Notes under the pieces: model-generated
What the model saw: the letters and a program-made list of their open reading frames with translations, nothing else
Database searches by the model: none
Told to the model about the DNA's origin: nothing
Source: a virus
Virus record (IMG/VR): IMGVR_UViG_3300050120_000007
Coordinates: 1-48,516 of that record
Strand: one strand, 5' to 3'
Length of the DNA: 48,516 bases
Translations under genes and position numbers: made by a program
In this document: one piece after another, positions 28,092 through 40,689 of the stretch
Position numbering within the stretch: the first letter of the stretch is position 1
Layout of the letters: each line of letters opens with the position of its first letter

Positions 28092-28296
28092 TCGTAGGTG
28101 TATCCCTCCGTGGTCGGGGAAGGTTGTAGGACGGTTCAAAGTCCAAATCTTCCCCGATAACCCCGAGAACCCTATCAATGTGACTGACACAACGGTCACA
28201 ACAATTGGTCTCAATCTTTCTATTGATGACCTGGACGACCTGATTTACGCACTCACCAAAGCCAAGTGGCGGGTGTTGAAACCAGAAAACTGTTGA
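28081..28296 (+). CDS. Small hypothetical early protein
   Basis: A 71-residue protein (ATG 28081, MAGNRRCIPPWSGK). The C-terminal two thirds look like a small beta/alpha unit (VGRFKVQIFPDN, TTVTTIGLNLSIDDLDDLIYAL). It is the last gene before the strong promoter at 28293, which starts inside its final codons. Function unknown. Confidence 0.5.
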   Translation: MAGNRRCIPPWSGKVVGRFKVQIFPDNPENPINVTDTTVTTIGLNLSIDDLDDLIYALTKAKWRVLKPENC

Positions 28297-28320
28297 CAAA
28301 GCCTTATTTTAGTGTACAAT
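28293..28320 (+). promoter_or_regulatory. Strong sigma70 promoter for the amidoligase operon
   Basis: TTGACA (28293-28298) and TACAAT (28315-28320) with a 16-nt spacer. The -35 is followed by AA, as at the promoters near 22413 and 40133 (shared TTGACAAA). It begins within the end of the preceding gene and drives a leader of about 95 nt and then the operon starting at 28423. Confidence 0.75.
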
Positions 28321-28347
28321 CCTTATAAGGCGTTGGTAATACCCCTT

Positions 28348-28371
28348 AGTCAGTAGAGCTTGCTCCTGACT
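28348..28371 (+). other. Leader hairpin upstream of amidoligase operon
   Basis: AGTCAG (28348-28353) pairs with CTGACT (28366-28371), extended by GAG-CTTG-CTC inside. It sits about 25 nt after the promoter in the untranslated leader, so it may act in attenuation, mRNA stability or as a binding site. Confidence 0.5.
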
Positions 28372-28422
28372 TGTGTTCACTCGTTTGAACCCCTTTTAAT
28401 CTCCCCGAACTAAGAGGCCATA

Positions 28423-29499
28423 TTGGCTGCTAAGAAAAAGGAAGTCCCGGCTGTAGTTGCCCCGATCAAGGACAACCCGGCTGAGAAGAAGGTCATCGAC
28501 ATTGTCGTGGCCCGTTATCGGTTTATGAACGGAGGCAACCCGTGTGCCTTTGGTGTCTTTTCAAACGACGGCAATAGACACACTGAACATCCTACGGCCC
28601 CCTGTCACGCTCAACTCCAATATTGGGGTGCGAAGATCGGTAGCTCGTATTATGGTCAAGGTGCCTGTGAGTTCGACCAACTGATCACGTCCTATTGGGC
28701 AGTGGAACCACTTGAGTTCCGCTACTTCGACTTCCTTAAGAATCGTTTGTTCAAGAACTGGTCTGATCTGATCACTCTTGAAGCGTCGGAGCATCACATT
28801 GACTTCGACAAGAAGAAGGACGGCGCTGTCCATGTGCCTCCTCACGTTGCTGGGTTGGACAAGGAGAAGTATCAGGATCAACCCTGGTATTTCATTCGTG
28901 TGTCTGACCTCTCTAAAATCCCTGCCAATGTCCTGTACAACTTCTGCATTGCCACTCGTGTCACTGTTGAGTACAGGGAGTTCCTGAAGACTTGGGGCAG
29001 GCTGTGTGAGGCTGGCGTGGACCCTGGTGTGGCATTTCTATTGGCCAACACCGGAACAGTCTGGCCCGTCAAAGCGGCGGACATCATGAACACCAAGACC
29101 AGTGCCAACTACGGGGCACGAGGCCATTGGGCTTATGACAACGACCCCGATCTTGAACGTTTCGTGAGGGGCAATCCCGACTCCACGAAGTTCGGCAAGA
29201 TGTACAAGGAAAAGACCGGTGACTGCCGGCCTGCCAATGTCATCTGGGGTAATCTTGGACGTGCCAGCCAGGCTCAATACCTGGGCAAGACGCCGAAGGA
29301 GATCATGCAATCTTTCGGTCTGATACCGGCGGAGCCGACTCCACCAGACGCCAAAGACAATCCAAATCGGATGGAAGCCGTGAAGGAAATTCCGATGGAA
29401 GATGACGATGACGATCTGTTGGATGAGGACTTTGACGACGACGATAACTTTGATGATTTTGATGATGACGAACGAGACGAGGACGATGACGACTTCTAA
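28423..29499 (+). CDS. Acidic-tailed protein opening the amidoligase operon (possible ssDNA-binding type)
   Basis: A 358-residue protein with TTG start 28423 (AGAGG 5 nt before). The N-terminus is Lys-rich (AAKKKEVPAVVAP). The body is a compact alpha/beta domain without recognised motifs. The final 35 or so residues are almost only Asp and Glu and end in Phe (DDERDEDDDDF). An acidic tail ending in Phe is known from T7 gp2.5 and E. coli SSB, where it docks partner proteins. Here it could do the same or be the substrate of the downstream ligases. A separate ssDNA-binding protein is encoded at 40240. Function remains open. Confidence 0.55.
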   Translation: MAAKKKEVPAVVAPIKDNPAEKKVIDIVVARYRFMNGGNPCAFGVFSNDGNRHTEHPTAPCHAQLQYWGAKIGSSYYGQGACEFDQLITSYWAVEPLEFRYFDFLKNRLFKNWSDLITLEASEHHIDFDKKKDGAVHVPPHVAGLDKEKYQDQPWYFIRVSDLSKIPANVLYNFCIATRVTVEYREFLKTWGRLCEAGVDPGVAFLLANTGTVWPVKAADIMNTKTSANYGARGHWAYDNDPDLERFVRGNPDSTKFGKMYKEKTGDCRPANVIWGNLGRASQAQYLGKTPKEIMQSFGLIPAEPTPPDAKDNPNRMEAVKEIPMEDDDDDLLDEDFDDDDNFDDFDDDERDEDDDDF

Positions 29500-30163
29500 T
29501 AAGCGTGTGCTTACCGTTTATAGCCATCGCGACTGGGGTGGTGAGGACAGCACTACAAGGCTATTCGCCGGCTACGGTTTCAAACCCGTGGTTCACCCTG
29601 ACGGCGCTGATATTATTGTGTTCAATGGCGGCGAAGACATCGCCACGTCCATCTATGGGGAGCGGCCCATCTCCGCGTACATCCCCGAACATCCGAGCCA
29701 CCGTGATCGGACCGAGATGCAACTGTTTGACGAGTACAAAGATCGTTCTGACAAGATGATCGTTGGCATTTGTCGTGGTGCGCAGCTCCTCAACTGCCTC
29801 AACGGCGGCAAACTCTTTCAAGACGTGAACAACCATACCAGGTCCCACGATATGTTGGACATCAAGACCGGTAAAGTTTTCCGGGCCACGTCTACTCACC
29901 ATCAGCAGATGATCCCGGGCGCCCATGGCGAGATCGTGGCCATCGCGTCTGAAAGCACGGTCAAACACAACGAAGCTAACAGGCAGAACATCAATCCTGG
30001 TGACATCCAACTCGGCGCCGACATGGAAATCATGTGGTACCCTGGTCACCGCACGTTGTGTATCCAAGGGCACCCCGAGTATGTTCCGGGTTCCGCATTC
30101 GCCGACTATTGTATCGGCCTCATCCATGGTTATTTTAAGGAGAGTGTCACATTTGCGGCTTAG
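29486..30163 (+). CDS. Class I glutamine amidotransferase-like (peptidase C26 type) enzyme
   Basis: A 225-residue protein. The nucleophile elbow is GICRGAQ with Cys96, and the His-Glu pair is in QGHPEY (His196, Glu198), giving the class I triad. The fold matches gamma-glutamyl hydrolase/peptidase C26 proteins, which remove glutamyl or similar amides. ATG 29486 overlaps the acidic-tailed gene by 14 bp with GAGG upstream. In an operon with ligases it could hydrolyse an intermediate or recycle a gamma-glutamyl product. Confidence 0.85.
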   Translation: MTTSNKRVLTVYSHRDWGGEDSTTRLFAGYGFKPVVHPDGADIIVFNGGEDIATSIYGERPISAYIPEHPSHRDRTEMQLFDEYKDRSDKMIVGICRGAQLLNCLNGGKLFQDVNNHTRSHDMLDIKTGKVFRATSTHHQQMIPGAHGEIVAIASESTVKHNEANRQNINPGDIQLGADMEIMWYPGHRTLCIQGHPEYVPGSAFADYCIGLIHGYFKESVTFAA

Positions 30164-31308
30164 TCGGCATGGCAGGCGATCTCAGCGGGGTCCAAACCCG
30201 AGACGCCTTCACTGAACTTCTTCTCGTGGACGTAGTCCGAGGTCATCACTCTACGGGTGTGGCGGGGGTCTTGCGTAACCACGAGAATGAAACCAATCTG
30301 GTCAAAGCGCCAGTTCCAAGCTTCGAACTCATTCTGCAGGATGAATATAAGAAGCTCATCAAAGACAAGCCGCTCAAGGCTCTCATCGGTCACAATCGGT
30401 GGGCTACAATTGGGGACTTGTCTGAAGCGAACGCCCATCCGTTCGACTTCGACGGTCTGGTCGGTGCTCACAACGGCACCATCGACCGGCACACCTTGAA
30501 GGACCTGCACCAGAACGCCATGTTCGACACGGACAGCCAGGCCCTCTATTCCAATCTCAACCATCACGGTCTCCAAGACACCATTGACAAGGTAACAGGG
30601 GCCTGGGCGTTGACTTGGTTCGACAAGAACGCCAACACCATCAACTTCCTCCGGAACGACAAACGGCCCCTCTACTACACCTACAGCTACGACCACTGCA
30701 CCCTCTTCTGGGCGTCTGAGCTGGAGATGTTGAAGTGGGTCCTGTCCCGTAACCGTGTTCGGGTTATGACTGAGAAGGTCGCCGGCAAGGAAGTTGAACG
30801 TTGGTTCGTTGTTGAAGCAGACATGCACACATCCTGGAAAGTCCCGGACGGCATCAACAAGAAGTTCGATGGTCCGAGGCTAAAAGAATGTAAGCATACC
30901 TTTCCTGTTTACAAGTATGAGCCGCGCAACGCGGCCGGCTACATGGGTCAGAGTGCCATCCCTTTTCTCCCCAGGAACGGTGGGACTACTGGGCAGGGGT
31001 CAACAAACCAGGATTTCCGTTCGTCAGGGAAGACGACGAAGAACTCGGGGCCTTTTGGTGAAAACAAAATAGACACGACAAAGTTCCGTCCGCCTTATAA
31101 GGACGCGAACGGCCTGACGTTTGGCAAGAAAGCTTTTGAGGCTCTGGTGTCTAATGGGTGTGTCTTTTGCGAGGACAACACTCAGAAGTGGGGTGACTTC
31201 ATCATGCCTATGCGTGACGACCTCACCGGCAAGAAGATTTTTCTTTGTGAGGAATGTTACAACGAAGACGAAACCCGTGAGTTGTGTACTCACATCATGA
31301 TTTCCTGA
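30151..31308 (+). CDS. Class II glutamine amidotransferase with C-terminal zinc ribbon, ATT start
   Basis: A 385-residue N-terminal-nucleophile enzyme that would supply ammonia from glutamine. Reading from ATT 30151 the protein begins M-C-G-L-V-G, placing Cys2 as the required N-terminal nucleophile. The first in-frame ATG (30169) would lose that cysteine. AAGGAG (30137-30142) precedes ATT by 8 nt. Later motifs are HNRWAT, AHNGTI (oxyanion-type Asn-Gly) and DTDSQAL. The C-terminal part carries CVFC and CEEC pairs, a probable zinc ribbon, which is unusual for the family. It overlaps the class I enzyme gene by 13 bp. It likely feeds the ATP-grasp or amidoligase enzymes. Confidence 0.88.
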   Translation: MCGLVGMAGDLSGVQTRDAFTELLLVDVVRGHHSTGVAGVLRNHENETNLVKAPVPSFELILQDEYKKLIKDKPLKALIGHNRWATIGDLSEANAHPFDFDGLVGAHNGTIDRHTLKDLHQNAMFDTDSQALYSNLNHHGLQDTIDKVTGAWALTWFDKNANTINFLRNDKRPLYYTYSYDHCTLFWASELEMLKWVLSRNRVRVMTEKVAGKEVERWFVVEADMHTSWKVPDGINKKFDGPRLKECKHTFPVYKYEPRNAAGYMGQSAIPFLPRNGGTTGQGSTNQDFRSSGKTTKNSGPFGENKIDTTKFRPPYKDANGLTFGKKAFEALVSNGCVFCEDNTQKWGDFIMPMRDDLTGKKIFLCEECYNEDETRELCTHIMIS

Positions 31309-31316
31309 GGACAAAC

Positions 31317-32129
31317 ATGAAGAACATGATCCTGGTCGGCGCTGACCCTGAACTGTTTATGCGTCACCCCGACTCCAACGACTTCATCTCGGCTCATGGT
31401 CGAGTTCCTGGAACGAAGAGCGAGCCCTTCAAGGTCCCGTTCGGCGCCATCCAGGTCGACGGCACAGCTCTGGAATTCAACATTGATCCGGCCAAGACGG
31501 TGGAAGAGTTCGTTCACAACATCAAGGCGGTGAAGACCACCCTGGAGAACTATGTGCCGGGCTACAACGTGGTCGCCGAGCCGGTGGCCATCTACGACGA
31601 AGACTACTTCAAGTGGGACGTGCCGGCGTCCGCTCAGGAACTCGGGTGTGATCCCGACTTCAACGGCTGGACTGGTCTGGTCAATCCTCGGCCCGACCCG
31701 AATGGCAAGCCCATGCGCACCGCCAGCGGCCACATCCACATCGGCTGGGGCGAAGGCTTCGATCCGCACAGTCCCGCTCACTTTGAGCAGTGCTGCCGGG
31801 TGGCTCGCCAGATGGACTACTATCTCGGCATCCAGTCTCTTCTCTGGGACAAGGACGGCACTCGTCGTGAACTCTACGGCAAGGCCGGCGCCTTCAGACC
31901 CAAACCCTACGGCATGGAATATCGTGTTCTGTCTAACCGCTGGCTGGCCAACGACGCCCTCACTGCTTGGGTGTACAAGGCTGTTCAGCTCGGCATGGAA
32001 CACGCTGCACTCGGTCGCTGGGCCGAGAACGTTTATGGCGACAGTGCCATGAAGATCATCGACCAAAACCAGGTCGACTGGAAGGACAAGTTTCTCATCT
32101 CTTTGGACTTGGAGAAGGTTCCGGCCTAA
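31317..32129 (+). CDS. Amidoligase of the phage COOH-NH2 ligase type (phiEco32-like)
   Basis: A 270-residue protein. LVGADPELFMRHP near the N-terminus, AIQVDGTALEFNIDPA (about residues 43-58), GCDPDFNGW and RTASGHIHIGW fit the glutamine-synthetase-fold COOH-NH2 ligase family predicted in phage operons. The acidic and His residues would bind ATP-magnesium and the carboxylate. GAGG precedes ATG 31317. The predicted reaction is ATP-dependent joining of a carboxyl and an amine. The substrate is unknown. Confidence 0.82.
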   Translation: MKNMILVGADPELFMRHPDSNDFISAHGRVPGTKSEPFKVPFGAIQVDGTALEFNIDPAKTVEEFVHNIKAVKTTLENYVPGYNVVAEPVAIYDEDYFKWDVPASAQELGCDPDFNGWTGLVNPRPDPNGKPMRTASGHIHIGWGEGFDPHSPAHFEQCCRVARQMDYYLGIQSLLWDKDGTRRELYGKAGAFRPKPYGMEYRVLSNRWLANDALTAWVYKAVQLGMEHAALGRWAENVYGDSAMKIIDQNQVDWKDKFLISLDLEKVPA

Positions 32130-32732
32130 GTGAAGACCAAATTCGACAATCTGGACGACGCCCGCGCAAAGCTCGTGGGCACCTACGGGTATATGGGCGG
32201 CAAGGCTGTCTATATCAAAGACGTCCAACATCATGAAGGCAATGCGGAGAAGTTCTCTGCGTTGGTCTCCACGATGAATGGCGGAAGGAAGCATCTGATC
32301 ATGTTGGAAGATGAGCAGTTCAACTGCACTGATTTCAACATCGGTTATGTGAACTTCCTACAGGGTTGCGTGTGGTACTATCGTGTCCCTCAAAAGCAAT
32401 ATCGTCAAGGTCTGCACCCCAACCAGGTGAAGGCTAAGATGTCTAAGCGGGAACATGCTGCCGGCGTTAACTTCAATGCTGGCAAACCTGTTGCCGACAT
32501 GCTTGAGAACACCTATCCGAAACCTGCCCAGGCCATCGACCTGATCAAGACCGGAGCGGCTGTTGTCGTGGCATTTCATCGTGACTTCGCTATTAGTCTT
32601 GACAGAATTCACGCCGATTACATCGTCGAACATAAGGGCACCTTGATTGGTCACACTGCGGACCTTAAGGACTTCCGCCTGATGGAAGAGTTTCAACATC
32701 TTACCGAAAAACTTATGGAGTGCGTGGCCTGA
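32130..32732 (+). CDS. Amidoligase-operon associated protein, unknown
   Basis: A 200-residue protein (GTG 32130, directly after the previous stop). It begins with a small domain (KLVGTYGYMGGKAVYIKDVQ) and continues FNIGYVNFLQGCVWYYRVPQKQYRQGL, a pattern I associate with proteins encoded next to phage amidoligases, without known activity. The C-terminal half is helical. It could be a partner or substrate carrier of the ligases. Confidence 0.55.
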   Translation: MKTKFDNLDDARAKLVGTYGYMGGKAVYIKDVQHHEGNAEKFSALVSTMNGGRKHLIMLEDEQFNCTDFNIGYVNFLQGCVWYYRVPQKQYRQGLHPNQVKAKMSKREHAAGVNFNAGKPVADMLENTYPKPAQAIDLIKTGAAVVVAFHRDFAISLDRIHADYIVEHKGTLIGHTADLKDFRLMEEFQHLTEKLMECVA

Positions 32733-34066
32733 TGCGAACGAAGCCTATGCATCTTGACACCAAGTTCTTTAACTATCTGGGTCACAACCAGAACCCTGCG
32801 CAAATCCCAGAGGATGCGTTCGGTGTGGAAGTTGAGCTGGAAGGTCGGAACATTATTACCGACGATCCACGAATTTTGAAATTGTGGGGAGCGCATCGTG
32901 ACGGATCGCTTCGTGTCGTTAATCCTGGTGATCAGTCGACCGAATACACTTTCAACGGCGCCTATGATCTGAAGACGACCGAGAACGCTATCAATCTTCT
33001 CTTCGACTATCTGACTGGGCCCAATGCTCGCGTCAACGAGAGCTATCGGACTTCCATCCACGTCCATGTCAACTGCATGAACGAAACTTATCGCACGATC
33101 TATAACTATATCACTCTTGCCATCATTCTGGATGAACTACTTGTCAGTCAGAACGGCGACCATCGGATCGGCAATAATTTCTGTCTTCGGGCGAAGGACG
33201 CGGAAGGTCAGATCGACGCTCTGATCGGCTCTATTGACGGCTTCGGGGACGCATTCCACGGTCTCGGCGAGAACCATCGTTACTCGTCAACCAATCTGGC
33301 ATCCTTGACCAAGTTCGGCACTGTCGAGTTTCGGTCTTTGGAATGCACGATGGATCGTGATCGTCTCATGCACTGGATCAAGACCCTCCAGACCATCAAG
33401 GAAAGCGCACGTAGGTACACCAATCCGAAGGAGGTTATCGGTCTGTTCAGCAAGCTTGGTCCTCGTCTGTTTCTCGGAACCATTCTCGGTCCTCAAGCTG
33501 CCAAATACGTGGCTGTCCCGAACTTCGACAAGATGCTCATCAACGGGATGCGCTTGGCCCAGGACTTCGCTTATTGCGCCGAATGGAAGGCGTACAAGGT
33601 GGGGGAGCCGCAGGTCAAGGAACTCAAGAAGATGCCCGCTGGTGGAGGGCATGAATTTGCTGGACAGGAGCTTGAATTCCTCCGTGAACAAGCTGGTCGT
33701 CTGGCTCCTCAACCTTTGAACCGCCGCCCCGGTGGTATCCAGTTCGGTGATGCTCAAGCACTCGCCGGCTGGGGTGAACGTCCGGCTCGTCCGGCACCAG
33801 CTCCTCGTCGACGCAACCGTGATGGTCAGTTCGCTGCCATGGCGGAAGCTGCTGAAGCTGTTCCTGTTCCTGATCCTCGTCAAGCTCCTCAGCCTGATGT
33901 CAACCCTGCTCAAGACGCCATGGCTCGGTGGATACGCATCCAAGAGGCTGATCTGGCAAATCAGCGTCGAATGGAAGCTGCGCAAAACATGATGGGCGGC
34001 AATTGGGTCGCTCAGGGACAACACGTCCAAGTTCCACTCCCCAACAACAATGAAGAGGACTTCTAA
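32732..34066 (+). CDS. Second amidoligase (Amidoligase_2-like) with Pro/Ala-rich tail
   Basis: A 444-residue protein (ATG 32732, TGATG overlap). FGVEVELEGRN near residue 30, WGAHRDGSLR, STEYTF, and RTSIHVHVN (about residues 108-117) match the other phage amidoligase family, a different branch of the glutamine-synthetase fold. Residues about 305-444 form a long Pro/Ala/Gln-rich disordered region ending in NNEEDF, an acidic-Phe end like that of the first operon protein. Probably makes an isopeptide or amide bond using ATP. Confidence 0.8.
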   Translation: MRTKPMHLDTKFFNYLGHNQNPAQIPEDAFGVEVELEGRNIITDDPRILKLWGAHRDGSLRVVNPGDQSTEYTFNGAYDLKTTENAINLLFDYLTGPNARVNESYRTSIHVHVNCMNETYRTIYNYITLAIILDELLVSQNGDHRIGNNFCLRAKDAEGQIDALIGSIDGFGDAFHGLGENHRYSSTNLASLTKFGTVEFRSLECTMDRDRLMHWIKTLQTIKESARRYTNPKEVIGLFSKLGPRLFLGTILGPQAAKYVAVPNFDKMLINGMRLAQDFAYCAEWKAYKVGEPQVKELKKMPAGGGHEFAGQELEFLREQAGRLAPQPLNRRPGGIQFGDAQALAGWGERPARPAPAPRRRNRDGQFAAMAEAAEAVPVPDPRQAPQPDVNPAQDAMARWIRIQEADLANQRRMEAAQNMMGGNWVAQGQHVQVPLPNNNEEDF

Positions 34067-34067
34067 C

Positions 34068-34829
34068 GTGACCAAGTGGCTGTACACTGGCGGCAGACCG
34101 TCAGACGGGGCAAAGCTTCTTGCCGAACACCCCGGCTTCAAGCGCTGTATCACAGGCCGGGACCTGAAACCCGGTGACACTATCATCAACTGGGGCTCTT
34201 CGGCGGACATCAATCCCGCCAAGGTCAAGCCTGGCGTCATGGAACGCTGCACGGTCCTCAATATTCCCCGGGCCGTGGCGCAAGCAGCTAATAAGCTGTT
34301 GGCCTTCCAAGGCATGGACGAGAAGGCGCAACTCGTTCCCTGGACGGCCGATCAGAAGGTCGCCCAGGCATGGTCGGACGACGGCAAGACGGTGGTTGTC
34401 AGAAATAAGTTGACAGGCCACTCAGGAGAGGGTATTATTATCGTGGAGCCTCATGCTCCTGTTCCGGCTGCCCCTCTCTACACTCGGTACATCTTCAAGC
34501 AGAAGGAATTCCGGGTTCACGTCGTGGCCGGCAAGGTGGTCGACACCCAACGGAAGATCAGGGACCCAGCTCGGGAACCCGCCAACTGGAAGGTTCGCAG
34601 CCACGAGAACGGGTTCATCTATGCCCGTGATGGTGTGGAAGCGGACGCCAATCGGAACTTCCAAGCCATCGAAGCCTGCAAGGCCTTGAAGCTGGACTTC
34701 GGCGCCGTCGACATCGTTCAAGACAAGAACGGGGCGTACTTCGTCCTTGAAATCAATACCGGCCCTGGCCTCGAAGGTCAGACCGTGGAGAACTACGCGG
34801 AGGCGTTCGCCAATGGCGGCAACCGTTAG
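34068..34829 (+). CDS. ATP-grasp ligase
   Basis: A 253-residue protein read from GTG 34068 (GAGG nearby). ATP-grasp features: VVVRNKLTGHSGEGIIIVE (nucleotide Lys and Gly-rich loop), KEFRVHVVAGKVVD (binding strand), FGAVDIVQD and YFVLEINTGPGL (metal-binding Glu-Asn pair). These enzymes activate a carboxylate as acyl phosphate and join it to an amine. With the two amidoligases and amidotransferases it completes a three-ligase set. The substrate cannot be predicted. Confidence 0.88.
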   Translation: MTKWLYTGGRPSDGAKLLAEHPGFKRCITGRDLKPGDTIINWGSSADINPAKVKPGVMERCTVLNIPRAVAQAANKLLAFQGMDEKAQLVPWTADQKVAQAWSDDGKTVVVRNKLTGHSGEGIIIVEPHAPVPAAPLYTRYIFKQKEFRVHVVAGKVVDTQRKIRDPAREPANWKVRSHENGFIYARDGVEADANRNFQAIEACKALKLDFGAVDIVQDKNGAYFVLEINTGPGLEGQTVENYAEAFANGGNR

Positions 34830-35169
34830 GCTTCGGTTCCGAGACGATCTTCCGGACCACCTGGAAGAACGACTTATCAACCGTTGTGGCTTTCGGGTCT
34901 ACGCTCGGAAGCGGTATGAGTATCTCATTGTTGAGAAGGTACCACCCTATACGTGCTTCGAAGCTCTCGTCAATGGAGAGTTGCCTGAGCACATCCAACT
35001 AGCTTTGCGGAAACGCATGAACAACGTGATCAGTCTCTATGTTGACCCTGACGCCAATGAAATGGAGATCAGGGGTCGTCTCGAACGTATCGCGCAAACA
35101 CTGCCGACGTTCCAAAGGAAGTTCGTCCGCCAGTGGATTGACGACAACGTAGGGAAGTATGGCGAATGA
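34813..35169 (+). CDS. Hypothetical protein in the amidoligase operon
   Basis: A 118-residue protein (ATG 34813, GGAGG upstream), overlapping the ATP-grasp gene by 17 bp. The sequence has a short basic start (AATVRLRFRDDL) and a helical C-terminal half (ERIAQTLPTFQRKFVRQWID). No family was recognised. Coupled translation suggests a role with the ligases. Confidence 0.5.
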   Translation: MAATVRLRFRDDLPDHLEERLINRCGFRVYARKRYEYLIVEKVPPYTCFEALVNGELPEHIQLALRKRMNNVISLYVDPDANEMEIRGRLERIAQTLPTFQRKFVRQWIDDNVGKYGE

Positions 35170-35327
35170 GATGCTACATCTGTGATGCAGACAGTGAAAC
35201 TGTTCAGTTTGAGCACGGCGAGTACGGTCCGTGTGCTGATTGCCAAGCGGCGATCTTCGAGTGCCTTCAAGGGTACCCGGACGTAACCAATGACCCGGAC
35301 GATGAGTTCGTCTTGATGGAGGACTAA
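35166..35327 (+). CDS. Zinc-ribbon mini-protein
   Basis: A 53-residue protein, ATG 35166 overlapping the previous stop (ATGA) and ending as TAATG with the next gene. CYIC (residues 3-6) and CADC (about 23-26) are two Cys pairs typical of a zinc ribbon. The remainder is acidic (NDPDDEFVLMED). It resembles the zinc-ribbon end of the class II amidotransferase in style. Confidence 0.6.
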   Translation: MRCYICDADSETVQFEHGEYGPCADCQAAIFECLQGYPDVTNDPDDEFVLMED

Positions 35328-35824
35328 TGGCTGAACGCGTAATCTTCTTGGACCTAGATGGTCCTATGATCCCTGGGAGAGCCTATCAAATGGCCTCCCA
35401 GACTCGACCTATTGTGAAGACCTTTGATCCGTGTGCCGTAGGGATGCTCAATGAGCTGTGCAAATTCCGGGACTACAAGATCGTCCTACACTCGTCTTGG
35501 ATTAAGATATTTGGAGGCGAGGACACGTACAAGCACTGCATTGAACAGGGGATCAAAGCGGAGTTCTTTCACAAGGACGCTTGGTGCGACGAGCGAATTG
35601 GGTGGCGCTACACTCGCGTTGCCAAGTGGCTCCGAGAACATCCGGGAGTGGAGGAGTACTTTGTTGTCGATGATGAGCCCTACAAGGCCGACATGGACGA
35701 AGCCAATCCCCATCCAGTTGACCTCGCCGACCATCTCATCCTCGTCGATTTCAATGACGGACTCCTCATGAAGCACACCGCCAAGATGTATGGAGATAAC
35801 CATGTCCTCCGCCAGCTCAATTAA
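35327..35824 (+). CDS. HAD-superfamily phosphatase-like protein
   Basis: A 165-residue protein. FLDLDGPMIP supplies the DxD nucleophile motif (Asp9, Asp11). VLHSSW is motif II (Ser/Thr), and FVVDDEP is the acidic metal-binding motif IV. It is small, like C0-type phage HAD proteins, which often act on nucleotides or phosphorylated ends. TAATG overlap with the zinc-ribbon gene. Confidence 0.75.
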   Translation: MAERVIFLDLDGPMIPGRAYQMASQTRPIVKTFDPCAVGMLNELCKFRDYKIVLHSSWIKIFGGEDTYKHCIEQGIKAEFFHKDAWCDERIGWRYTRVAKWLREHPGVEEYFVVDDEPYKADMDEANPHPVDLADHLILVDFNDGLLMKHTAKMYGDNHVLRQLN

Positions 35825-35993: not shown

Positions 35994-36138
35994 GCACCTG
36001 CAAAGCGTCGCTCATGACGAAGCTGTTCGACTTCAATCTGCCGCAGACAACGGGAAGATCATACTCAATCTGGCGTCTGCTGTTGGTATCTGTAAGCTGA
36101 TCGAGGAGCTGTGTAAGTGTCTGGCCGAACCTGGGTAG
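35974..36138 (+). CDS. Small helical protein
   Basis: A 54-residue protein (ATG 35974, GGAAGAG just upstream), overlapping the previous gene by 20 bp and the next by 22 bp. Almost entirely helical (RIKHLQSVAHDEAVRLQSAA, LNLASAVGICKLIEELCKCL). It was kept because of tight overlaps and a ribosome site on both this and the next gene. Function unknown. Confidence 0.4.
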   Translation: MNNKRIKHLQSVAHDEAVRLQSAADNGKIILNLASAVGICKLIEELCKCLAEPG

Positions 36139-36647
36139 CTGCTGACCACCATTTCGGTCATCGTAATATCCTCAATTTTCTAGACGCTGACGGGGACCGC
36201 ATTCGTGGTTCTGTCTTCGCTGACATAGAGGCACATGATGATGGACTTGTTGAGCGCCACAATGCTGTGGTTGCTGATAACGACCGTGTATATCTGTTGG
36301 GTGATGTCGCTATTAATCGGCGTGCTCTTAGCACTTTACATCGTCTCAAAGGCCGCCTTGTATTGGTCAAGGGGAACCACGATATCTTCAATCTTAAGGA
36401 CTATCTTCCTTTCTTCGATGACATCAGATCGTGTGTCGTACAAAAAGACCACGACGGTAACAAAGTAATTCTAACCCATATTCCTGTCCATCCCGACTGT
36501 CTGGGTCGGTTTGGTACAAACATTCATGGGCACTTACACCAGAATAAACTGCAGGACCCAAATTATATTTGCGTGAGCCTGGAGCACACTAATTACCAAC
36601 CCATCGAAATTCACGAAGCACTTAAGCTGCGAGGCCTGCGGGTCTAG
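36117..36647 (+). CDS. Calcineurin-like metallophosphoesterase
   Basis: A 176-residue protein, GTG start 36117 with GAGGAG 8-9 nt upstream. All family motifs are present: ADHHFGH, LLGDVA, VKGNHD, THIPVH and HGHLHQ, giving the two-metal site. Likely a nucleotide or DNA/RNA end phosphatase. Its last 56 bp overlap the primase-helicase frame. Confidence 0.85.
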   Translation: MSGRTWVAADHHFGHRNILNFLDADGDRIRGSVFADIEAHDDGLVERHNAVVADNDRVYLLGDVAINRRALSTLHRLKGRLVLVKGNHDIFNLKDYLPFFDDIRSCVVQKDHDGNKVILTHIPVHPDCLGRFGTNIHGHLHQNKLQDPNYICVSLEHTNYQPIEIHEALKLRGLRV

Positions 36648-40239: not shown

Positions 40240-40689
40240 ATGCTAATTCAAGGCAAAGCCAAGTGGGCTAAGATTACCGGTAAGCCGCATCCCGGTTACG
40301 AGAACAAGTTCAATGAGTGGTCGATTGACGTCTATGTCGATGATGCCACTGTTGAGCGTCTCAAGGCGGAGGGTCTTGGTGACAAGATCAAGGACAAGGG
40401 TAACGGCGAGTACATCACCTTCAAGCGTAAAGAACTGAAGAAGGACGGTACGCCGAACCAACCCATTCGTGTCGTCGACCATCGTGGCGAAGCTTGGGGT
40501 AATCAGAAGATCGGCAATGGTTCGACTGTGAATGTGAACTTTGCGATCAATGAATTCAAGCCCAAGCAGTTCAATGCCAACATCCTTTCTCTTCAGGTCT
40601 GGGACCTCGTCGCCTACGAAGGTGGTGAATTTCCTGTCCGTGAAGACGGTGCCCAAGTTGAGGGTGACTGGGATAAGGAAGTCGCATAA
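40240..40689 (+). CDS. Single-stranded DNA-binding protein (phage type)
   Basis: A 149-residue protein. AKWAKITGKPHPGYENKFNEWSIDV, the YITFKRKE strand, RVVDHRGEAWGNQKIGNGSTV and ILSLQVWDLVAYEGG fit the OB-fold ssDNA-binding proteins of T7-like and related podoviruses. It is the first gene after the promoter, with a 75-nt AT-rich leader. Its stop overlaps the next start as ATAA. The C-terminus is mildly acidic (EDGAQVEGDWDKEVA) without a terminal Phe. Confidence 0.8.
   Translation: MLIQGKAKWAKITGKPHPGYENKFNEWSIDVYVDDATVERLKAEGLGDKIKDKGNGEYITFKRKELKKDGTPNQPIRVVDHRGEAWGNQKIGNGSTVNVNFAINEFKPKQFNANILSLQVWDLVAYEGGEFPVREDGAQVEGDWDKEVA

Follow-up and report, generated by a model that had tools for sequence, protein, structure and literature searches.

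A conserved phage amide-ligation cassette with three ATP-dependent ligases, a class II amidotransferase and a probable gamma-glutamyl hydrolase

The window analyzed here is the whole 48,516-nucleotide stretch of IMG/VR virus record IMGVR_UViG_3300050120_000007, and it carries at positions 28423-35327 an amide-ligation cassette of nine genes (g1-g9), all on the + strand. The cassette encodes three ATP-dependent amide ligases (COOH-NH2_lig, Amidoligase_2 and RimK-type ATP-grasp), a zinc-ribbon class II amidotransferase, a C26/class I protein, the conserved proteins g1 and g5, and smaller genes. Pfam matches, all above the curated cut-offs, were obtained for g2 (Peptidase_C26, 1.6e-15), g3 (GATase_6, 7.5e-18), g4 (COOH-NH2_lig, 4.4e-9), g6 (Amidoligase_2, 1.5e-12) and g7 (RimK, 1.9e-5), and the operon proteins matched phrog_7218, 4736, 3815, 7469 and 2599. 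All of the domains named in a preliminary description of the locus are thus present, as is the nearly continuous gene overlap noted there, the nine genes being joined by overlaps of 1-17 nt or gaps of 0-8 nt. A candidate sigma-70-type promoter (TTGACA-16-TACAAT, 11/12 matches) is positioned upstream of g1 at 28293..28320 (+ strand). The site is plausible as the single promoter proposed in that description, but promoter-like sites are not enriched in the region (4 versus 5.7 in shuffled sequences), and a second, equally good site lies inside g7 at 34410.

The uninterrupted order g1-g2-g3-g4-g5-g6-g7 was found in 19 of the 43 loci compared, with the neighbor pairs g3-g4, g4-g5 and g5-g6 kept in 35, 36 and 37 of them, respectively. 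Because gene order and neighbor pairs are kept across these loci, a chance origin of the operon is excluded. The catalytic residues of the cassette enzymes are nearly invariant among relatives and intact in the window, contrary to the inactivation that the preliminary description had allowed for. The operon is a real, intact and widely conserved amino-acid amide-ligation set. With PF14395, PF12224, a class II glutamine amidotransferase and an ATP-grasp enzyme all in one operon, it is a variant of the phiEco32/LUZ24/Zobellviridae amidoligase cassette.

The conserved neighborhood occurs in Zobellviridae-like, LUZ24-like, Kuravirus, Vibrio, Rhizobium, cyanobacterial and crAss-like phages, spanning phages of Pseudomonadota, Bacteroidota and cyanobacteria. 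The phiEco32-like (Kuravirus), LUZ24-like (Bruynoghevirus) and Zobellviridae phages (O4/PA11, CW02, CVT22, GP100) share the ligase families, the class II amidotransferase and the ATP-grasp enzyme with the window, and the Zobellviridae also share the gene order, including g1 and g5, upstream of primase/helicase. The window differs in having a C26 protein where Kuravirus and LUZ24 have a gamma-glutamyl cyclotransferase (GGCT), and in the acidic tail of g1 and the extra genes g8-g9. Against GenBank phages, protein identity does not exceed about 54% (g4), no DNA-level match of the window was found, and the longer relatives showed no extra domain that would indicate a fusion.

The class II (Ntn) glutamine amidotransferase g3 (30151..31308) retains Cys2, Arg83, Asn108-Gly109 and Asp128, followed by a C-terminal zinc ribbon (C337-C340/C366-C369). 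Its start is an ATT at 30151, giving a protein that begins ICGLVG; the ATG-based open reading frame at 30169 consequently lacks the nucleophile Cys2. ATT or ATC starts of the class II amidotransferase recur in several lineages, so that several public annotations lose the catalytic cysteine. Compared with GlmS, only the amidotransferase half is present before the zinc ribbon, and the sugar isomerase domains were not matched in Pfam or NCBIfam. Lacking a synthase domain, g3 must deliver its ammonia to a different enzyme.

Two ligases flank a small protein downstream. The phiEco32-type COOH-NH2 ligase g4 (31317..32129), assigned by Pfam (PF14395, 36.4 bits against a cut-off of 25), PHROGs (phrog_3815, 3e-82) and motifs, has the glutamine-synthetase-like elements D10-x-E12, E53, H139-x-H141 and E201-x-R203. 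Relatives of g4 were found in 316 GenBank phage records; among bacterial genomes, close relatives were limited to 7 MAG contigs, which are taken to be viral. The Amidoligase_2 protein g6 (32732..34066; PF12224, 48.4 bits against a cut-off of 22), whose ATG overlaps the g5 stop codon (TGATG), contains E28-x-E30, E66, H105-x-H107, R140 and E194-x-R196, numbered from the Met at 32747. Profile comparison of g4 with g6 gave no usable alignment, and their placement in one superfamily is therefore based on Pfam, the layout of the motifs and the literature. Between them lies g5 (32130..32732, GTG start), a small beta-rich protein found directly 3' of g4 in 36 of 43 loci and 5' of g6 in 37 of 43. Its model (pTM 0.87) matched nothing significant in the PDB, and a resemblance to eIF5A/EF-P/Tudor-like proteins was too weak to use (E 0.01, TM about 0.2). 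This conserved placement marks g5 as a core member of the cassette.

The third ligase, g7 (34068..34829, GTG start), is a RimK-type ATP-grasp enzyme with invariant K76, E147, R149, K163, D215, E228 and N230. It passes the Pfam RimK cut-off (24.8 bits versus 21), and its closest solved relatives are RimK alpha-L-glutamate ligases (best PDB matches 7qyr, 7qys, 4iwx and 5zct). It shares their fold family and ATP-grasp motifs but falls far below the curated cut-off of NCBIfam rimK_fam (TIGR00768; 44.1 versus 143.4 bits) and sits inside a multi-ligase operon. The R2K clade of CDC123-like phage ligases also scored under cut-off (R2K_2, 21.8 versus 26.3; R2K_3, 18.3 versus 26.2).

The first gene, g1 (28423..29499, TTG start), encodes a 358-residue protein of unassigned function with no Pfam match. 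Neither its sequence nor its fold (AlphaFold model, pTM 0.77) had a match in the PDB, and the named matches in a fold search of BFVD were all proteins of amidoligase-cassette phages. A DNA-pattern scan of viral contigs returned no g1 relatives, the sequences being too divergent; the relatives came from a profile search in the loci brought in by g4. Cys61 and Arg179 are kept family-wide and His235 is near-invariant. To judge from this conservation, the Cys/Arg/His core is the conserved part of g1 and integral to the cassette. Profile-profile comparison with two upstream proteins of Kuravirus and LUZ24 was weak (E 0.056 and 0.024) and anchored on the same motifs; these proteins are likely g1 relatives. 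The preliminary description had left g1 and g5 as two unknowns; both are conserved core members of the cassette.

The second gene, g2 (29486..30163), has the Peptidase C26/class I amidotransferase fold (PF07722) with the triad Cys96-His196-Glu198, whose residues are invariant in 28 sequences. The closest PDB relatives are Lin1909, probable glutamine amidotransferases and PuuD (profile match 2.4e-12). In NCBIfam, g2 weakly matches gamma-glutamyl-CDP-amidate hydrolase (2.2e-6) and scores far under every equivalog cut-off. In two phages (L047 and L048), GGCT occupies the g2 slot, between g3 and the gene in the g1 position, which was identified as g1 by profile in L048 (E 2e-19) and by position only in L047. 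The 30 near-complete records comprise 10 with C26 only, 11 with both, 9 with GGCT only and none with neither (Fisher p 0.013, a post hoc value that ignores shared ancestry). GGCT beside the cassette is thus frequent but not universal, being absent from 10 of 30 relatives, and GGCT (PF06094) had no match anywhere in the 48.5-kb record, where C26 is present instead. Control comparisons showed GGCT-fold and C26 proteins among ordinary cellular enzymes as well, so the replacement could be coincidental; the 11 genomes with both enzymes likewise count against it. Given that GGCT takes the place of g2 in two phages and that none of the 30 records lacks both C26 and GGCT, g2 is probably a gamma-glutamyl hydrolase and not an ammonia supplier. 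Of the two amidotransferases originally proposed, the class II enzyme g3 therefore stands, whereas g2 is better read as a hydrolase.

Two known pathways combine glutamyl attachment with later removal. In the Puu pathway, PuuA is a glutamine-synthetase-like gamma-glutamylputrescine ligase and PuuD a C26 hydrolase that subsequently cleaves the gamma-glutamyl bond. The window likewise pairs a glutamine-synthetase-like ligase with a C26 protein, but it adds two other ligases, the class II amidotransferase, g1 and g5, and has no PuuB/PuuC oxidoreductases in the operon; the polyamine link is an analogy. In assembly of the butirosin side chain, the ATP-grasp ligase BtrJ attaches glutamyl units and the gamma-glutamyl cyclotransferase BtrG later removes them, an arrangement resembling that of the GGCT-bearing relatives. 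The window differs in using C26 rather than GGCT, and neither an acyl carrier protein nor a PLP decarboxylase was seen.

Our preferred model, held at about even confidence, is a phage-specific pathway, active in mid-infection, in which amide bonds form in a glutamine/glutamate-dependent manner and a gamma-glutamyl group is attached and later removed. Gene content, synteny, intact catalytic residues, the replacement and complementarity of C26 and GGCT, and the core status of g1 and g5 are observed, to which the model adds a reaction order, gamma-glutamyl chemistry and an ammonia hand-over. In it, g7 and the glutamine-synthetase-like g4 and g6 would activate carboxylates with ATP and couple them to amines, with g5 as a probable partner of g4 and g6. 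The amidotransferase g3 would split glutamine and pass ammonia to a glutamine-synthetase-like ligase, turning a carboxylate into an amide, and g2 (GGCT in other phages) would later cut the gamma-glutamyl bond, in the manner of PuuD following PuuA and BtrG following BtrJ. g1 is an integral component, its cysteine a candidate catalytic or carrier residue. The end product may be a small amide or peptide, or a modified macromolecule. The amide or peptide modification pathway akin to phiEco32-like operons, with product undefined, that was first proposed for this locus is thereby supported. More tentatively, the cassettes could represent a previously unrecognized seven-component phage machine (g1, g5, three ligases, an ammonia donor and an interchangeable gamma-glutamyl remover), found across many bacterial phyla, that uses gamma-glutamyl protection and deprotection to make an amidated product in mid-infection, the donor being held down by its AUU/AUC start in several lineages.

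An alternative that we consider unlikely is envelope or peptidoglycan modification blocking superinfection, with g2 and g3 both supplying ammonia. Later work (PMC10580990) reports this as what Iyer et al. 2009 proposed for phiEco32, and in bacteria an amidotransferase-ligase pair, MurT/GatD, is known to amidate peptidoglycan glutamate (PMC3267633). Since GGCT is no amidotransferase, its presence in place of g2 argues against this reading, as do the lack of any membrane or wall-binding domain matched by Pfam in the core enzymes and a host range spanning three bacterial groups. In the relative PaP3, the cassette region belongs to the middle gene class (PMC4707531; genes mapped through PMC3890496 by gene numbers only), which is late for exclusion though still compatible with it. 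The same assignment underlies the mid-infection timing in the preferred model.

Quite improbable, in our estimate, is protein tagging, in which g1 or its acidic tail would accept amino acids by polyglutamylation of the RimK/tubulin-ligase type. The RimK ligases closest to g7 add Glu at a protein C-terminus, and g1 is adjacent, conserved and of orphan fold. The Asp/Glu tail noted in the preliminary description does exist (about 29370-29496, + strand, ending DDDDF), but it is common only to the window and its nearest relative, L002; L003, L004 and every other g1 relative have unrelated C-termini. The tail is therefore not a general substrate, and the conserved Cys/Arg/His of g1 look catalytic, unlike an acceptor tail. 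Identification of g1 as a single-stranded DNA-binding protein from its DDDDF end was likewise rejected: the tail is unconserved, and a separate SSB-like open reading frame, recognized by eye, lies at 40240-40689, so an SSB role need not be assumed for the g1 tail. We rate as very improbable a third alternative, production of a modified nucleotide or DNA base. It is suggested by the placement of the cassette, in most annotated genomes, upstream of the genes for primase/helicase and polymerase, and by its middle-class expression in PaP3. Against it, the window genes searched yielded no hydroxymethylase, base kinase, glycosyltransferase or DNA-modification gene, and the cassette also occurs in relatives whose replication modules are quite different.

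Predicted in 2009, this cassette type is carried by hundreds of sequenced phages, some of them well-studied phages of E. coli and Pseudomonas aeruginosa. The open literature searched, whose scope did not extend to Iyer et al. 2009, contained no biochemical characterization of such cassettes, and ten proteins of the region gave no match to PADLOC models of known or candidate anti-phage defense. The comparison narrows the question of the product to testable chemistry, namely gamma-glutamyl or amide products and the action of g2 or GGCT on gamma-glutamyl-amines. It also names two neglected core proteins, g1 and g5, and corrects public gene models that lack the amidotransferase catalytic cysteine, which is relevant to anyone cloning g3.

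Beyond the window, g8 (34813..35169), a gene of unassigned function, occurs only in the three nearest relatives, L002-L004. The first gene past the cassette, g10 (35327..35824, + strand), is HAD_SAK_2 phosphatase-like by Pfam and is not kept with the cassette beyond L002-L004. The 53-residue CxxC/CxxC protein g9 (35166..35327) is present in L002-L004 and also in L031.

The operon comprises nine consecutive genes, g1 (28423-29499), g2 (29486-30163), g3 (30151-31308), g4 (31317-32129), g5 (32130-32732), g6 (32732-34066), g7 (34068-34829), g8 (34813-35169) and g9 (35166-35327), joined by overlaps of 1-17 nt or gaps of 0-8 nt. The enzymes named in the preliminary description were recovered with Pfam and PHROGs: a protein of the Peptidase C26/class I GATase fold (g2), a class II GATase (g3), a COOH-NH2 ligase (g4, PF14395), an Amidoligase_2 protein (g6) and a RimK-type ATP-grasp ligase (g7). 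When 28-39 relatives were aligned, the catalytic residues of all five proved nearly invariant, and all are present in the window. These are C96/H196/E198 in g2; C2/R83/N108-G109/D128 and four zinc-ribbon cysteines in g3; D10-x-E12, E53, H139-x-H141 and E201-x-R203 in g4; E28-x-E30, E66, H105-x-H107, R140 and E194-x-R196 in g6; and K76, E147, R149, K163, D215, E228 and N230 in g7. Read from the alignments, g4 and g6 have a common layout (ExE or DxE, E, HxH, R, ExR), as in glutamine-synthetase (GS)-like ligases; profile-profile comparison of the two yielded no alignment. One promoter for the operon is plausible: a TTGACA-16-TACAAT site lies upstream of g1, but promoter-like sites in the region are not enriched over shuffles and an equally good one (TTGACA-17-TATTAT, 11/12, 34410-34438) lies inside g7.

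g2, previously taken for a second amidotransferase, is probably a gamma-glutamyl hydrolase, judging from the replacement of C26 by a gamma-glutamyl cyclotransferase (GGCT) in relatives. In Vibrio phage 1.293.O a GGCT occupies the same slot, between g3 and a gene identified as g1 by profile (E 2e-19); a Melvirus likewise has a GGCT between g3 and the gene in the g1 position, whose profile match to g1 is not significant and which has only a CFG motif in common with it. When 30 near-complete records (45 kb or longer, or listed as complete in GenBank) were searched over their whole length, 10, including the window, had C26 only, 11 had both, 9 had GGCT only and none had neither (Fisher's exact p 0.013, in a post hoc test that ignores shared ancestry). 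Records with neither protein are fragments or L028, a 39.5 kb record of odd arrangement. Both families include enzymes that cleave gamma-glutamyl amides, PuuD among the C26 proteins and GGACT and BtrG among the GGCT proteins, though their chemistry differs; since the two replace each other, the pathway would appear to contain a gamma-glutamyl bond. Among solved structures, g2 is closest to Lin1909, probable glutamine amidotransferases and PuuD. Its top hit in NCBIfam, gamma-glutamyl-CDP-amidate hydrolase, is weak and scores far under the cut-off.

Of the 43 loci in which the operon is not truncated, all have g3, g4 and g6, 42 have g7, 37 have g5, 30 have C26 and 21 have GGCT; g1 was recognised in 31. 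The uninterrupted order g1 to g7 occurs in 19/43, and the g4-g5-g6 block is kept through rearrangements that shift g3 and g7. g1 and g5 are core parts of the cassette. g5 is predicted to be compact and beta-rich (pTM 0.87), is encoded between the two GS-like ligases, and gave no significant match in a fold search. For g1, sequence searches of Pfam and PDB gave no relative, nor did a fold search of PDB; its viral fold matches at E < 0.01 include proteins of CVT22, CW02, Cronobacter phage GAP52 and Aeromonas phages 4_4572 and LAh_6, besides several listed without name. The cassette or its PF14395 ligase is carried by the first four of these phages, and the cassette by LAh_8, a near relative of LAh_6. 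C61 and R179 of g1 are invariant and H235 is found in 27/29 aligned sequences. The acidic tail of g1, earlier considered a plausible ligase substrate, is restricted to the window and its nearest relative, L002, and is absent from L003 and L004 (66% and 60% identical in g4), which removes the main support for that role. A long Pro/Ala/Gln-rich stretch extends the C-terminus of g6; it ends in NNNEEDF, and its last residues resemble the DDDDF end of g1.

The start of g3 was placed directly before the nucleophile cysteine because this residue is needed at position 2. In the window the codon is ATT (30151-30153), preceded by AAGGAG; reading upstream from the cysteine, an in-frame stop is reached before any ATG, GTG or TTG. 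ATT is also the g3 start in L006, L010, Kuravirus Paul and XT18, ECBP2, Bas88 and Paundecimvirus FBPa8; O4 has ATC, and its close relative TC6 has TTG. The loci noted for ATT or ATC besides the window are L006, L010, L034, L036, L057, L058, L060 and L063. Public annotations of Paul, XT18, ECBP2, O4 and FBPa8 begin g3 downstream and so drop the catalytic cysteine; the Bas88 record has the ATT start.

This analysis establishes which parts the cassette has, that they are intact and that they are conserved; from this a pathway may be proposed. g3 would release ammonia from glutamine and, since it lacks a synthase domain, would need another enzyme to accept that ammonia, the simplest candidate being a GS-like ligase. 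g7 would add an amino acid, probably glutamate, and g1 may act as a catalytic or carrier partner. A gamma-glutamyl group would be attached first and later taken off by g2 or GGCT, for which the Puu and butirosin pathways offer precedent. In the LUZ24-like phage PaP3, ORFs 32-48, including the primase/helicase ORF40, are middle genes peaking at 10-30 min (PMC4707531); they take in p44 and p47, which are cassette genes by the homologies listed for UFV-P2 (PMC3890496), placing these in the middle class.

This kind of cassette had already been predicted, and the literature names its enzymes in genome descriptions; the proposal, made in 2009, that it modifies the cell wall to prevent superinfection was repeated later (PMC10580990). 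No experimental work on it was found in the openly accessible literature searched. Relative to that literature, this analysis adds a probable gamma-glutamyl role for g2, the recognition of g1 and g5 as core members, and the recurrence of AUU or AUC as the g3 start.

Of the GenBank phage records, 316 encode the PF14395 ligase. By our scan, g4 relatives among 84,980 bacterial and archaeal species genomes were confined to seven contigs, all in metagenome-assembled genomes, so the close g4 family looks phage-specific. At the DNA level the operon matched none of 50,697 GenBank phage records. The window itself, a 48,516-base IMG/VR record, is a tailed phage whose head and terminase genes lie on the minus strand and whose early/replication genes lie on the plus strand. 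Its closest terminase relatives (about 50% identity) include Brevundimonas and Roseobacter phages, so the host may be an alphaproteobacterium.

Several relatives have unusual cassettes. In L028 (6170-9710) a minus-strand g5-g6 pair precedes a plus-strand g4-g5-g6 block, with g3 and g7 not recognised; this cassette is duplicated or misassembled. L009 has two COOH-NH2 ligase copies (454 and 7965), of which the additional one lies some 7.5 kb upstream of the main cassette. The record of Leptolyngbya phage Lbo-JY46 encodes three C26 and two GGCT proteins, and its expanded cassette adjoins genes for nicotinate phosphoribosyltransferase and PRPP synthetase. In the window, the nick consensus TACTRTGMC of the LUZ24-like phage tf has four matches (10513, 18748, 41064 and 43229) versus 1.3 expected, a weak excess that 3/100 shuffles reach. 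The cassette is followed by an RNA-repair-type HAD protein (HAD_SAK_2, 35327-35824) and a calcineurin-like phosphoesterase (36117-36647), possibly a small repair or nucleotide module.
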